Shown here: piece after piece, positions 33,444 through 37,571 of the stretch
Layout of the letters: each line of letters begins with the position of its first letter
Position numbering within the stretch: position 1 is the first letter of the stretch
Source of the DNA: an uncultured Kiloniellaceae bacterium
Lineage (GTDB): Bacteria; Pseudomonadota; Alphaproteobacteria; Kiloniellales; Kiloniellaceae
Assembly (NCBI GenBank): GCA_947493695.1
Contig: CANLSF010000008.1
Span: forward strand, 1 to 64,000
Direction of reading: 5' to 3'
Length of the DNA stretch: 64,000 nt
Notes under the pieces: generated by a model
Seen by the model: the letters and a program-made list of their open reading frames with translations, nothing else
The model's database searches: none
What the model was told of the DNA's origin: nothing
Position numbers and translations under genes: made by a program

Positions 33444-33992
33444 TCACACCGCATTTTTTAACCGCCGGCGCGTTTCCATCAGGGCGAAGCCCAGCAGGTT
33501 CTCGCCGTTCCATTGCCCCGGGTCTTCGATCCTCGGATCATCCGCCGCCAGACCCACGCCCCAGACCTGATCCAGCGGGCTGGCCTCGACCAGGACGCGC
33601 GCGCCTGTATTCAGCAGGAATTGCTCCAATTCGGGATTCTGCTGGAATTTCTCGACGTTGCCGCGCACGACGATGTCGAACTTCCGTTCATCCCAGAGGG
33701 ATTGATCGAAGGAACGCACCTCGCGGCCCAGCGCCTTGGCTTTGCCCGGATTGCCGGCAGCCAGAATCTCTTCCCGCTTGCCTTGGTCGCCGAACAGCCT
33801 TGCTTTCTCGGCCATCATGAAATGCTCGACCGTCAGGTACAGCTCGCCGTTCTGTGTGAAGGGCGCGTCGTACCATTGACTGAAACAGGCCTTGGTAACC
33901 TGGCCTTCCGTCTTTCTGTGGCCCCAGAAATAGACGTACTTCACACGGTTCCCCGTGCTCAGGTAGGTCATGAGTTCCTCTATGTTCTTCAT
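33444..33992 (-). CDS. NADAR family protein (YbiA-like)
   Basis: The 182-residue product matches the NADAR family. It has FWGHRKTEGQVTKACFSQWYDAPF, YLTVEHFMMAEKARLFGD, GRxVRxFDxxxWDExKxxIV as GREVRSFDQSLWDERKFDIVVRG split across strands, and NLLGFALMETR. NADAR proteins include the riboflavin-intermediate N-glycosidase YbiA, and other members remove ADP-ribose from guanine in toxin-antitoxin settings. ATG 33992 has GGGAGTC upstream. No DarT-like toxin is adjacent. Which activity this copy has cannot be told. Confidence 0.9.
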   Translation of the reverse strand: MKNIEELMTYLSTGNRVKYVYFWGHRKTEGQVTKACFSQWYDAPFTQNGELYLTVEHFMMAEKARLFGDQGKREEILAAGNPGKAKALGREVRSFDQSLWDERKFDIVVRGNVEKFQQNPELEQFLLNTGARVLVEASPLDQVWGVGLAADDPRIEDPGQWNGENLLGFALMETRRRLKNAV

Positions 33993-34121
33993 CAACAGAC
34001 TCCCGTCGAGCTGCGGCCGTGGCCCGCCGCCCACTTTTTGTAAACCCGCCGCATCTCGGCGCGATCGGCACCGACCGCTTGCAGGGCCTGTTCATTGCTG
34101 ATCCTTCGTAACTCGTATGGT

Positions 34122-34754
34122 TCAGCTTTGCGAAAACGACGCATCCATTTCTTTTCTGTCAAAATCCAGGAGGTAGTGGTTGAACCGATTGTACAGCTCT
34201 CCGAGAAGTGGCCTATTCGGCCCGACGATATCCATTCCGCGATCGTCATATGGGAAAACCAGAATCTCTTTGTTCAGATTGAACAGGTACACCATCGCAT
34301 CCGCGCGCGGTCTGATAGGCCCAAAGTCAGATGTAAAGGCCAACCACAATGCGTTCGTCAGAAGTTCAGGTGAGGCATTGAATGCTAAGTAGTGCCAAAC
34401 CCATTCTTGGCTGTTCTCTTCGACTTCCCACTCGTATTCTCGTTCGTCAGGTTCGACCCAGTGCTCCTTTTCAGTAAATGGAAAAAGATCAAGATCGCGT
34501 AGCTGTCTAAACTTAGCCAAGAACGATATCAGAGCCGGTCTTCCATAAAACTTGAAGCAAACAGTCATATCTTCATCTTGTCTAAAAATGTGACTGCAGA
34601 CTTCCAGAGCCTTTCGATGCGCGGTCAGGAACTGGTCGAGATAGTAGCCTCCTTCGGATAGCTCCATCCGTAAGCCGCATTTGTAAGTATAAAAGAGGGG
34701 GCGCTCGAACGCCTTGCCATCAAAAATTTTCTCGATCTCAGAACGAAGACTCAT
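34122..34754 (-). CDS. DUF3885 domain protein
   Basis: The 210-residue cytosolic protein ends with the DUF3885 signature MVYLFNLNKEILVFPYDDRGMD followed by ELYNRFNHYLLDFDRKEMD. The N-terminal half has LDQFLTAHRKALEV. DUF3885 proteins are of unknown function and are often found near polymorphic toxin or immunity genes. It lies upstream of the NADAR gene on the same strand (129-bp gap), so the two could share a transcript. Confidence 0.8.
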   Translation of the reverse strand: MSLRSEIEKIFDGKAFERPLFYTYKCGLRMELSEGGYYLDQFLTAHRKALEVCSHIFRQDEDMTVCFKFYGRPALISFLAKFRQLRDLDLFPFTEKEHWVEPDEREYEWEVEENSQEWVWHYLAFNASPELLTNALWLAFTSDFGPIRPRADAMVYLFNLNKEILVFPYDDRGMDIVGPNRPLLGELYNRFNHYLLDFDRKEMDASFSQS

Positions 34755-34949: not shown

Positions 34950-34997
34950 GAGGCTGATTCACGCCTTTCACGGAAACCGTGAAAAGCGATCAGACTC
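34950..34997 (-). repeat. Fifth copy of the hairpin repeat, directly after the slipin stop
   Basis: On the minus strand the unit reads GAGTCTGATCG, a CTTTTCACGG/CCGTGAAAGG stem, then CGTGAATCAGCCTC. It has the same GAG-x-CTGAT-CG...CG-TGA-ATCAG-x-CTC frame as the tandem copies at 19029. The inner stem of 12 bp (including the CG) is unrelated in sequence but fully paired. Confidence 0.8.
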
Positions 34998-36118
34998 TAA
35001 CGCGGCCGGATCCGCACCAGATCGTCCAGCACGCCATCCATGCCGTTACCGACGATGACGTTACCGACCTTCTCGGACACCTTCTCAAGCGCCTCGAGCT
35101 CCTTCAGCCGCAGCAGGATGGGGTTGTCCTCCATCAGCTTTGCGGTGTTCAGAAGCGACCGCGTTGCCGCAGTCTCCTCGCGCCGCTTGATGACGTTGGC
35201 CTGTGCGGTCTTCTCCGCCTCGATGACCCGGTTCATCAGCTCCCGCACGTCTCCGGGCAGGATGATATCCTTCACACCGACGGAGGGGACCTCGAGGCCC
35301 GCGTCGCCGAGCTTGGGCAGCAGCAAATCCGCCACCGCCGCGTTGATGCCCAGCTTGTCGCCAAGCACCTCTTCGAGCGTCCGGGTGCCGATCACCTGCC
35401 GCAGAGCAAACTGGAGCTCCTTGTACAGGAAGTCCTTCAGGTCCGCGGTCAGCGCAACAGCCTTAAGCGGGTCAGCGACCCGGTAGACAGCCGTCACGTT
35501 GGCCCGCAGGCCGATCCGGTCTTTGGTCAGCACCTCCTGACCGGTGACCTCCAGGCTCTGCAGCCGCAGGTCAAAGGTCACGACATCGATGCGCCGCAGC
35601 GCCTTCACGAAGGCATAGCGGCCCGGCGTGAGCTGCTTTTGCAGCACGCCATCGACGTAGAGCAATCCGACGTGATCGGAGACCACCTCGGCAACGGCCA
35701 CCAACTCCCGCGCTCCCAGCCGCACCAGGGGTGCAACCAGCCGCTCGGGCAGCTCGATGTCGTTTGCCGCGTCCAGGACGTCGATGGCCATGTTCCGCAG
35801 CGCCTTGGCGTAGAAGGCTACACTGCGCGGCGCAACCAGCCCCGCCAGCTTGCCGTCGGCGGCGACCAGGCCCATCTCGTCATCGCCCATGTCGGCGACG
35901 AGGAAGCGGTCCTCAACCACCGTGCGGTGGGTCAGGTACAACGCTGCCAGCGCGGGTTCCTTCACGGGCATGGCCCGCAGGTCCAGCTTGATCACCTCGA
36001 TCTTGCCCCGTCCCCGTAGGAAGCGGTGCACGCCGGGTTCCAGCACCCGCTCAAACGCCCGGTTCCGATACAGGAGACCGAGCTCGTAGTCCGCAATTTT
36101 CTCGGTCTTGTAAACCAT
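34997..36118 (-). CDS. Slipin / SPFH (band 7) domain protein
   Basis: The product has 373 residues. It shows an SPFH core in the second half: LRLQSLEVTGQEVLTKDRIGLRANVTAVYRV, LYKELQFALRQVIGTRTLEEVL, GLEVPSVGVKDIILPGDVRELMNRVIEAEKTAQANVIKRREETAATRSLLNTAKLM distributed over consecutive segments. There is no N-terminal membrane helix, unlike many slipins, so it is probably peripheral or soluble. Slipins of this type occur in RtcB-type RNA-repair operons. Here no rtcA, rtcB or rtcR is present, but two tRNA-like sequences lie upstream on the same strand. The start ATG 36118 has AAAGGAC upstream. Confidence 0.88.
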   Translation of the reverse strand: MVYKTEKIADYELGLLYRNRAFERVLEPGVHRFLRGRGKIEVIKLDLRAMPVKEPALAALYLTHRTVVEDRFLVADMGDDEMGLVAADGKLAGLVAPRSVAFYAKALRNMAIDVLDAANDIELPERLVAPLVRLGARELVAVAEVVSDHVGLLYVDGVLQKQLTPGRYAFVKALRRIDVVTFDLRLQSLEVTGQEVLTKDRIGLRANVTAVYRVADPLKAVALTADLKDFLYKELQFALRQVIGTRTLEEVLGDKLGINAAVADLLLPKLGDAGLEVPSVGVKDIILPGDVRELMNRVIEAEKTAQANVIKRREETAATRSLLNTAKLMEDNPILLRLKELEALEKVSEKVGNVIVGNGMDGVLDDLVRIRPR

Positions 36119-36369
36119 CGAACTTGTCCTTTCTCTTCTTTCTTTTCTTCTTGTTTTTTCCCCTCGCGAGGGACCGGAACCGAAGAAAGTTCCTATAAAA
36201 TATAAGGGCCTGTTTAGAGCCAGGTTGTTGTCGTGGCGGGAACACATAGTTCCAGCGGGCAGGAGCAGACGGCGCGATGTGGCAGGTCCCACACAAGACG
36301 TCTGCGACGCCCCCGCTGGGGCTAAGCGACCCGTCGCGGCAATAGCCTGGTTCTATACAGGTCCTCGAA
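36119..36369 (-). other. Leader region between the candidate RNA and the slipin gene
   Basis: No gene is seen. It contains an A/G-rich purine tract on the coding strand just before the slipin start (36120-36160) and a CCCTCGCGAGGG palindrome at 36164-36175. The same core, CTCGCGAGGG, recurs at 36968-36977. Confidence 0.4.
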
Positions 36370-36652
36370 AAGGAATACCGGAAGAGCCCCGGCTTTGGGC
36401 TCTGGACGGCCCCGACGTTCTCCCTCCGTCACCTGAGCAGACCCCCGGGGTGCCGGTCGCCGCCGAGCTTCCTCCCGAGGGACAAAGCTGCAGCGGCGGC
36501 ACGGCGTGCCGGGGCCCTTTTCAGGCAACGTTGGAGCACGTGGAGAGGCCGCACGAAGCAACCCGTCACCTGGCGTTGTTCCTGGCGCGCGCTCTGACCG
36601 AAGTCAGTGGCACGCGCGTCCGAACAGCGCCTGGCGCTCTTCCGGTATCCTT
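36370..36652 (-). ncRNA. Candidate structured RNA upstream of the slipin gene
   Basis: The ends are inverted copies: 36370-36387 (AAGGAATACCGGAAGAGC) and 36636-36652 (GCTCTTCCGGTATCCTT), pairing 17 of 18. Inside, on the minus strand, are CTGAC-TTCG-GTCAG (a UUCG tetraloop stem at about 36597-36610) flanked by CGCGCG arms, and GCCGCCG...CGGCGGC with inner AGCTT/AAGCT (36459-36500). There are also local hairpins AGCGCC/GGCGCT and GAGCCC/GGGCTC. No coding frame fits. Function is unknown. Confidence 0.45.
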
Positions 36653-36682
36653 CGTTTCTGATCAGCTTGGAAGGCTGAGTGA

Positions 36683-36747
36683 GATGGAGGGACTCGAACC
36701 CTCTACCGCTAGATTATAAGTCTAGTGCTCTACCAATGAGCTACATC
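36683..36747 (-). ncRNA. tRNA-like sequence 2 (UAU anticodon loop, truncated acceptor)
   Basis: The D arm (GCTC/GAGC), anticodon arm CTAGA-CTTATAA-TCTAG and T arm GAGGG-TTCGAGT-CCCTC are intact. The acceptor stem has only four pairs (GATG/CATC); the outer three positions mismatch and run into the neighbour's CCA. No CCA is encoded. It cannot be a normal tRNA-Ile and is either a decayed or a specialised tRNA-like RNA. Confidence 0.7.
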
Positions 36748-36748
36748 G

Positions 36749-36823
36749 TGGTGCCAGACACGGGGATCGAACCCGCGACCTCCGGATTAATGTCCGGCGC
36801 TCTACCAATTGAGCTAGTCTGGC
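36749..36823 (-). ncRNA. tRNA-like sequence 1 (Asn-like, six-base anticodon loop, encoded CCA)
   Basis: It has a perfect 7-bp acceptor GCCAGAC/GTCTGGC, D arm GCTC/GAGC, T arm GCGGG-TTCGATC-CCCGT, and an encoded ACCA end. The anticodon stem CCGGA/TCCGG encloses only CATTAA, six bases rather than seven, and U33 is missing. Outside the loop it resembles tRNA-Asn. It is followed within one base by tRNA-like sequence 2. Decoding is not expected. Confidence 0.75.
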
Positions 36824-36832
36824 CAACCAAGT

Positions 36833-37571
36833 ACTTAATGCTCGATACACGCACAGCATATTACCAATACCGAGCGCGCCGGCCGGGCTTTTGAACCCGA
36901 ACCATAGAGCGGTTTGTTACCGGCGTTTGCCGGTAAAAAATACCAAACGAATGAAGGCTCCTGATCCTCTCGCGAGGGATACTTCTCGTGGTCGTTTATG
37001 TCTGTAAATGTTTCATCATCGTCCTGCCTCCGTTGCTTTGTTTAAGCCGGGGCGGGACACGCGCAGAACGCGGGTCTAGACCCCGGTTGTTGTGGCCCAG
37101 TTCGCTGGGCATAAACTGAATTCCCGTATCATCAGCGGGCTTTCTCTTGCGCGTTGAAGCGAATTGCCTTTAGCAAAACGCTGTGACCGACCGCGTTATT
37201 GCGACCGGGAGGCAGGGTATAATCCGGAAGCGGTTCGAAAATCAACCGTGAATTGGGTGCGGCCTGCAAAAAGACTGATTGGAAAAGCCTGCGCGCGTGA
37301 TGCGTGTGAAATATTGCGTAAGGGGCGAGACAGAGTGACGCTTGATTGCGCGAAGCAGATAGGACGACGTGAGCGAAAAAAGAATCGGCCAAGCGACGAA
37401 AGAACAACCCAGCCGCTCCGACAGCGAAATAAATCCCCAGGATAAAGAGCCTCACGCTCCAATAAAATTAGCAATCAGTAAGGGAATAACTTTTACACAA
37501 ACTATTTGAGCGGGAATTTTGGAACTGAGATCATAGCAACCATCGGTAATCTTTGTTTATAGGAGACGAAA
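36833..37571. other. Gene-poor region with several small hairpins
   Basis: No convincing gene is seen; frames at 37132-37455 (minus) and 37164-37445 (plus) overlap each other and lack family resemblance. Hairpins include TTACCGGC/GCCGGTAA (36918-36937), GGGTCTAGACCC (37072-37083) and GCCCAG-TTCG-CTGGGC (37095-37110). A weak T-arm-like piece, CGGG-TTCAAAAG-CCCG, lies at about 36884-36899 on the minus strand, upstream of the tRNA-like pair. Confidence 0.4.

Follow-up and report, generated by a model that had tools for sequence, protein, structure and literature searches.

The DNA analysed here, referred to as the window, is a stretch of 64,000 nucleotides (nt) from contig C8 of the 6.46-Mb genome of an uncultured Kiloniellaceae bacterium, and its subject is a pair of tRNA-like genes, A and B, that lies on the minus strand upstream of a gene for a slipin-type SPFH protein (34997-36118, same strand; Pfam Band_7, 103 bits). 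The nearest named relatives at the slipin locus are an uncultured Kiloniellaceae bacterium, a Pelagibius sp. and Denitrobaculum tricleocarpae; D. tricleocarpae R148 and a Pelagibius strain are the nearest named ones that carry the pair. The two tRNA-like genes abut each other at 36823-36683 and are found by ARAGORN as well as by the Rfam tRNA model RF00005; the running of a tRNA covariance model had been proposed in an initial annotation of this DNA, and both elements score above the gathering cut-off of 29 bits, A with 60.1 (36752-36823) and B with 59.8 (36683-36747). In a structural parse of the locus (L112), A has a fully paired acceptor of 7 base pairs (bp) (GCCAGAC/GTCTGGC) with the tail ACCA, its encoded CCA lying at 36749-36751, intact D and T arms, and an anticodon stem CCGGA/TCCGG that closes the 6-nt loop CATTAA; the second loop base is A, hence there is no U33. 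Element B has only four inner acceptor pairs (GATG/CATC), an anticodon stem CTAGA/TCTAG with the 7-nt loop CTTATAA, an intact T arm and no CCA, and its RF00005 match spans model positions 4-67 only, in agreement with the short acceptor.

The initial annotation had described A by its full arms, encoded CCA and six-base loop without U33, and B by its UAU loop, four acceptor pairs and missing CCA, and ARAGORN, Rfam and the parse bear out both descriptions. It had also held that neither element can decode normally, and this appears correct: the 7-bp acceptor and CCA expected of a decoding tRNA are present in A and absent from B, and the expected combination of a 7-nt loop, U33 and an anticodon shared by orthologues is lacking, A having six bases without U33. 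Large non-coding RNAs of the GOLLD and ROOL type are associated with tRNAs, but in an Rfam search of the whole window only the two tRNA matches reached the gathering threshold, and GOLLD, ROOL and similar RNAs did not.

The pair is tightly linked to the slipin gene. Within the order Kiloniellales, it was found as a two-element BLAST match in 14/58 genomes, including that of the window (L051-L064), and a slipin-profile search found this slipin in 14/61 genomes, which coincide with the pair-bearing ones; neither the pair nor this slipin is present in the 44 other genomes covered by both searches, and the slipin follows the pair in 14/14. Outside the order, a scan of named genomes with a slipin alignment gave 40 loci from alpha-, beta- and gammaproteobacteria, cyanobacteria, Myxococcota, Pirellulaceae, Calditrichaeota and one contig labelled Agromyces, while the slipins of 6/385 genomes of a class sample and 23/398 of a phylum sample gave 26 further loci; these distant loci were thus found through the slipin itself. 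ARAGORN reports tRNA genes upstream of the slipin in 38/40 of the named loci, the exceptions being L088 and L104 with 45 and 0 nt of upstream sequence, and in 18/26 of the further loci, to which Rfam, run on 20 of them, adds L116, L138 and L143.

A structural parser, which retains elements lying 150-1000 nt upstream of a slipin, was checked on 40 stretches with tRNAs of the window's own genome; it returned 34 matches, 33 of them with a 7-nt loop, U33 and 7 acceptor pairs, and the last (L031) has an unpaired acceptor and looks like a false match. When L104, whose sequence begins at the slipin, was left out, the parser found an element that passes its cut-off, at most 1 kb upstream of the slipin, in 63/69 loci from several phyla, an abutting pair in 32 of them, and the element nearest to the slipin at 206-973 nt. 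Nothing above the cut-off was found in L117, L140, L145, L088 and L151 (45 and 136 nt of upstream sequence in the last two), nor in L138, though the latter has an Rfam tRNA match of 29.9 bits. In the control run the sense strand upstream of the slipin gave an element in 62/67 loci, as opposed to 0/67 each for the antisense strand, Markov shuffles and the inside of the slipin gene, and 0/15 for regions upstream of rtcB. Absence of the pair upstream of related slipin genes would have spoken against the initial annotation; instead, the pair is present in all 14 cases of the order, and elements of its kind in most of the wider sample.

Several loci contain further genes near the slipin. Between 5 and 15 tRNA genes surround it in L086, L089, L090, L093, L094, L095, L096, L103 and L109, which come from several phyla; in these multi-tRNA loci (beta- and gammaproteobacteria, Myxococcota, Pirellulaceae) the tRNAs are mostly of ordinary type according to ARAGORN, and the odd element or pair is usually set apart from them, closest to the slipin. 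In L089 and L096 the tRNA genes sit between rtcB and the slipin, and in Cyanosarcina a reverse-transcriptase gene (L098, 2081-3145) lies upstream of the pair. In the window the slipin is followed by a DUF3885 gene and a gene with a NADAR domain (33444-34754, minus strand); in the DNA around each of the 40 named loci a NADAR match occurs only in L072 and L074 and DUF3885 in none.

The anatomy of the elements is consistent across the class. Among the 32 abutting pairs, A has a loop of 5, 6, 8 or 9 nt rather than 7 in 21 and CCA in 18, and B has CCA in one and at most five contiguous acceptor pairs in 27. An alignment of B was built from 50 of 63 elements (49 distinct rows), restricted to those with a 7-nt loop, a 4-bp D stem and a 5-nt variable region; in loci without a pair, the element counted as B is simply the one nearest to the slipin. 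Of the 49 sequences, 41, 47, 49 and 48 form the four inner acceptor pairs, and the three outer pairs fail to form in 32, 35 and 30. The short acceptor of B is thus typical of the class and does not stem from damage to a single genome. Changes on both sides of a pair occur in 263 alignment cells of the B cloverleaf versus 87 in shuffles, a number reached by none of 500 shuffles, and the signal collapses when the pairing partners are slid. The anticodon stem is 100% paired with covariation in 5/5 pairs, pairing of at least 4/5 having been a condition of the parser; the inner acceptor and the T stem covary, and the D stem is almost invariant, in a setting where the parser also required D- and T-arm features, so that the conservation of these parts is partly built in. 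The arms are kept paired through compensatory changes and the pair is not decaying, which is what the initial annotation had argued from the paired arms of a single genome.

Within this conserved fold the anticodon is free to change. Mapped on the slipin tree, positions 34, 35 and 36 of B changed 25, 23 and 18 times over the 52 leaves with 7-nt loops, positions 32, 33, 37 and 38 changed 7, 9, 9 and 10 times, and the unconstrained T-loop site 59 had 32 changes on 61 leaves. The 14 genomes of the order and one further genome, 15 in all, carry 13 different A loops and 14 different B loops, compared with a single tRNA-Asn loop in all 14 of these genomes in which that tRNA was found; in four congeners tRNA-Asn is identical at 75/75 positions, and the bodies of A and B are 88-95% identical to those of the window. 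The surrounding loop retains features of a tRNA. U33 is present in 42/54 seven-base B loops, and G36 occurs in 10/10 loops with G37 versus 8/44 without it (p = 2e-6), a combination associated with m1G37 in genuine tRNAs. The anticodon triplet is therefore unconstrained within a loop architecture that is kept. Copying of host tRNA loops was considered as a source of the B loops; 14/54 (6/38 unique) equal a real tRNA loop in the reference set, column shuffles averaging 8.6 and reaching 14 in 102/5000 cases.

While the initial annotation confined the feature to 36683-36823, and this extent holds for the pair itself, it overlooked a larger conserved stretch that is found in 17 alphaproteobacterial loci and runs in the window from about 37060 (upstream) to 36378 (downstream). 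In its upstream part lies a putative mini open reading frame (mini-ORF), ATGATGAAACATTTACAGACATAA (36996-37019, minus strand), with the predicted product MMKHLQT*. An ATG with a frame of 6-8 codons follows a Shine-Dalgarno (SD)-like sequence, matched by a permissive SD pattern, at 158-196 nt before A in 17/17 loci, and in 12/17 the mini-ORF has the form (M)MK..T-stop. A hairpin directly before the mini-ORF (37020-37060, minus strand), whose 3' strand holds an SD-like GGAGG, appears in the single-sequence folds of all 17 loci; the consensus fold derived from the upstream alignment lacks it and joins its 5' strand to a stretch further upstream instead. This conflict could reflect either a misalignment or a true alternative pairing. 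The consensus fold as a whole has 95.1% of its alignment cells paired, and 11/28 pairs changed on both sides compared with 3.9 in shuffles (0/500 reach this number). Just 5' of A this fold has two conserved hairpins (36843-36904, minus strand) with 98.0% and 99.5% of cells paired, in which 9/20 pairs are invariant and 7/20 changed on both sides, and just 3' of B is a further hairpin, TCAGCC..AAGCTGA (36662-36678, minus strand), with a 4-bp stem that covaries in an alignment of 16 sequences.

Downstream of these, a structured domain of 268 nt (36378-36645, minus strand; 222-274 nt across loci) is closed by a long, slightly interrupted helix of CCGGAAGAGC with GCTCTTCCGG. RNAalifold predicts 50 pairs, 30 of which changed on both sides, with 90.8% of cells pairing and the closing 14 bp formed in 98.7%; both-side changes number 124 cells as against 48 in shuffles (0/500 reach this), and slid structures are at most 52.2% paired. 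A covariance model of the domain (R1) detects it at 3717-3931 of L084, a sequence not used in training (E = 8e-9), between the tRNA-like elements and the slipin. The only other match is the window itself, a training sequence; in the remaining 67/69 sources, the loci of other phyla among them, nothing scores better than E = 0.87. Long-range helices spanning 200-280 nt can be drawn in several distant loci, and many are no longer than those in shuffles. No Rfam family scores above its cut-off on any part of this larger RNA except the tRNA-like elements, and we reject a known non-coding RNA family other than tRNA as an explanation. A terminator-like site (36393-36377) coincides with the 3' end of the domain. 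Mini-ORF, hairpins, pair and 3' domain presumably belong to one transcript. A near-repeat, ATTCGTTTGGNACTTT, occurs on the minus strand both upstream of the pair (36940-36952) and just before the slipin (about 36187-36205); it is present in several alphaproteobacterial relatives and clear in L081 and L075, the second copy of the window being poor, and it may be an operator or an RNA box that frames the element.

The initial annotation had also linked the pair to nucleases or repair enzymes, and as genomic context a link to RNA repair holds. In the phylum sample, all 14 non-alphaproteobacterial slipin genomes have RtcB within 4 kb of the slipin, and 8/14 have RtcR within 6 kb. Among the named loci, RtcB is found in the DNA around the slipin in 6/40 (L089, L095, L096, L102, L103 and L111) and RtcA in L111, while in Acaryochloris (L092, 5600-6370) a gene for the tRNA-His guanylyltransferase Thg1 lies downstream of the slipin. 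In the order, RtcB occurs in 12/14 slipin genomes versus 16/47 others (Fisher p = 0.0015), on a contig other than that of the slipin in all 12. Short-word BLAST of the pair regions against 15 regions upstream of rtcB gave no consistent motif among the matches listed, and a promoter or operator shared by the pair and rtcB was rejected on that result. A terminator-like hairpin with a T-run (CCTCCC..GGGAGGGTTTTT) lies just upstream of rtcB in the window's own genome (L153; C3:463300-464900) and in L155, L157 and L158; in the first of these and in L155 and L158 a GGGAGGG further upstream could, by eye, pair with the 5' arm of the hairpin, which is a possible attenuator of rtcB.

According to the parts of PMC7790460 that deal with Salmonella, binding of tRNA 5' halves with a cyclic phosphate to RtcR turns on rtcBA. 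In Anabaena, the relevant sections of PMC10272220 describe a slipin, rtcB and a tRNA operon that are all raised on loss of the repressor TrcR, whose repression is relieved by translation-inhibiting antibiotics, and an SPFH gene lies within the rtc locus of P. aeruginosa in the account of that locus in PMC13086221.

The features that the sequence comparisons bring out are the association with slipins, the kept cloverleafs, the free anticodon and the truncated acceptor of B, joined in alphaproteobacteria by the mini-ORF leader and 3' domain. The reading that we favour, with a probability of roughly 0.4, is that the pair is a non-decoding, tRNA-mimicking structured RNA that is linked to a slipin-type SPFH protein and acts in a response to tRNA damage or in RNA repair; in the sampled Pseudomonadota outside the alphaproteobacteria, gene neighbourhood indicates that this RNA belongs with RtcB as well. 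As a mechanism we prefer, at somewhat less than even odds, a nuclease bait or alarm, because the arms keep the anticodon-loop architecture, look unusable in translation and occur together with tRNA-mending enzymes. The RNA would be produced, possibly when the mini-ORF leader senses translation stress, and would present two tRNA-shaped anticodon arms that need have no part in translation. Anticodon-loop ribonucleases (colicin-, PrrC- or VapC-like, or phage-triggered) would cut these mimic arms too, and the cutting would either soak up the nuclease or yield 2',3'-cyclic-phosphate halves that report tRNA damage, the halves being sealed by RtcB where it is present and the slipin serving as a membrane platform. 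The anticodon would be free to vary since it never decodes, and its variation may track the nucleases met in each lineage. A fuller version must be held more tentatively, namely that these loci represent an undescribed slipin-linked RNA class of often tandem tRNA mimics with an evolvable anticodon loop, acting as bait or alarm for tRNA-cutting toxins, which in alphaproteobacteria would be an RNA of about 700 nt with a mini-ORF sensor and a 3' domain, and which would work without RtcR and sometimes without RtcB.

Several points weigh against this interpretation. RtcR is found in 0/14 of the pair-bearing genomes of the order, and sensing by RtcR is inapplicable there because the protein is absent; RtcB is not obligatory, because 10/12 other alphaproteobacterial slipin genomes have no RtcB match. 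The anticodon changes at about the rate of the freest sites, which shows a lack of constraint and not positive selection, and a free anticodon fits a bait but also a scaffold in which the anticodon is simply irrelevant. Exact matches to real tRNA loops are few (14/54), and the case for B loops as copies of host tRNA loops is weak. By loop, U33, an acceptor of at least six pairs and CCA, 5/32 A elements and 2/63 elements nearest to the slipin (L091 and L098) could be working tRNAs. PMC7790460 reports, in the part concerned with the tRNA-like YrlA of Salmonella, that the nuclease under study left this RNA uncut. Finally, both transcription of the pair as RNA and its role are what we infer from these comparisons. 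Two rival explanations come close behind the bait or alarm, and the data do not separate the three.

One of these rivals, which we consider possible but unlikely, is that mini-ORF, hairpins, pair and 3' domain form a cis-acting leader of the slipin mRNA, in which ribosome stalling on the mini-ORF or competition for tRNA-processing enzymes (RNase P/Z) would decide on slipin expression. The parts share a strand and immediately precede the slipin, the nearest element being 206-973 nt away in the 63 loci noted above, the mini-ORF is found in every one of the 17 alphaproteobacterial loci, the alternative pairings of the 5' flank (the SD-holding hairpin versus the stretch further upstream) could be a switch, the terminator-like site stands at the end of the 3' domain, and the Anabaena slipin is listed in the regulon that translation inhibitors release (PMC10272220, in the sections cited). 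However, no sigma-70 promoter-like site was found, terminator-like sites number three on both strands against 1.6 expected, very short open reading frames arise easily, and a leader does not explain why there should be two cloverleafs whose anticodons are free.

The second rival, a shade less probable still, is a scaffold similar to Y RNA that binds the slipin, RtcB or another RNA enzyme in a ribonucleoprotein, with only the L-shape mattering and the anticodon drifting neutrally. It would account for an anticodon rate near that of free sites and for a nearly invariant D stem beside covarying inner acceptor and T stems, it has the slipin as the constant partner of loci that were, admittedly, found through the slipin, and rtc operons include YrlA RNAs that possess a tRNA-like domain, as treated in PMC7790460. 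On the other hand, U33 and the G36-G37 coupling in B are unexpected for an irrelevant loop, the match to the YrlA family is far below its cut-off (19.7 versus 69 bits), and D- and T-arm conservation is partly imposed by the parser.

It is very improbable that the pair consists of decaying or spare tRNA genes, or of attachment-site remains, kept beside the slipin by chance. Both elements are defective as decoding tRNAs and their bodies change faster than tRNA-Asn in the congeners, but the covariation, the controls, the class-wide 4-bp acceptor, the exact co-occurrence with slipin in the order and the linkage over several phyla argue against decay. A phage or plasmid origin was likewise rejected, distant BLAST matches having only 60-90% identity; at least 80% of the pair was covered in 11/77 phage and 9/20 plasmid records, and among the best 20 rows of each, tRNA genes are named in most phage rows that bear an annotation and hypothetical proteins in one, while the plasmid rows are unannotated under the match. 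Least probable of all are functional suppressor or specialised decoding tRNAs; the few serviceable elements mentioned above would speak for them, but most A loops have the wrong size (21/32), B has CCA in 1/32 pairs and no more than five contiguous acceptor pairs in 27/32, anticodons differ between congeners, and the window's own genome has ordinary tRNA genes besides, for example tRNA-Asn(GTT).

Transfer RNA genes are among the most conserved sequences of genomes and each is defined by its anticodon; the present elements retain a tRNA shape across several phyla with the anticodon free, next to one type of SPFH protein and often next to an RNA-repair ligase as well. If our interpretation holds in vivo, the locus would provide a handle on the role of bacterial slipins in repair operons, on the sensing of tRNA damage where RtcR is missing, and on whether cells keep sacrificial tRNAs against anticodon nucleases, and the class, if real, would add an RNA component to the tRNA-damage response. 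Gene finders may count these elements as tRNAs of odd isotype (ARAGORN calls Ile, Lys, His, Met and others), which can distort studies of tRNAs and codons.

Among known systems, the phage tRNAs that evade anticodon nucleases resemble the pair in the evolution of anticodon loops in an extra set of tRNAs, proposed to be driven by nucleases; in the sections of PMC10264068 that present them they are proposed to work in translation, whereas the elements described here are chromosomal mimics that apparently do not decode. The TrcR regulon of Anabaena also brings tRNA genes, RtcB and a slipin under one control released by translation stress, but in the portion of PMC10272220 that describes it the tRNAs form a megaplasmid operon of 26 genes and the slipin is a separately listed gene (alr0740), unlike the one or two non-decoding elements that stand directly before the slipin here. 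YrlA and other bacterial Y RNAs of rsr-yrlBA-rtcBA operons are likewise tRNA-mimicking non-coding RNAs in an RNA-repair operon, and inhibition of an anticodon nuclease is suggested for them too in the passages of PMC7790460 on YrlA. The slipin-linked pair differs in its two tandem cloverleafs and its slipin partner, the Rfam YrlA model RF02553 gives no significant match (E = 0.38), and no Ro60/Rsr (TROVE) domain was seen among 10 window proteins scanned against Pfam, no search aimed at TROVE having been made. The regulator of an RtcR-controlled rtc operon is, as noted, missing from the pair-bearing genomes of the order.

No description of a slipin-linked class was found in searches of the open-access literature, and the review by Burroughs and Aravind 2016 (NAR) or the paper on the Anabaena tRNA operon (PMC8421152) could still mention the association. 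The closest precedent is Pcar_R0061 of Pelobacter carbinolicus, which the section of PMC3543383 devoted to it describes as one 'mutant tRNA' flanked by rtcR on one side and a stomatin-rtcA-rtcB operon on the other; its authors argued from reciprocal mutations that it is no pseudogene and proposed a substrate or guide for RNA-repair enzymes. In that section U33 is lost, the anticodon changed and the acceptor defective, and the arms are kept by reciprocal changes. Like Pcar_R0061, the window holds degenerate, structure-preserving tRNAs directly upstream of a stomatin/slipin gene. It does not have rtcR, rtcA and rtcB in the locus: its own RtcB is on another contig and RtcR is absent, RtcA not having been searched in this genome. 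Pcar_R0061 is a single element in one species, and a pair, a class-wide free anticodon, a mini-ORF and a 3' domain do not appear in that section. The present loci extend this single case to a class and add to it the pair, the free anticodon and a short acceptor shared across the class, together with the mini-ORF and 3' domain of the alphaproteobacterial loci.
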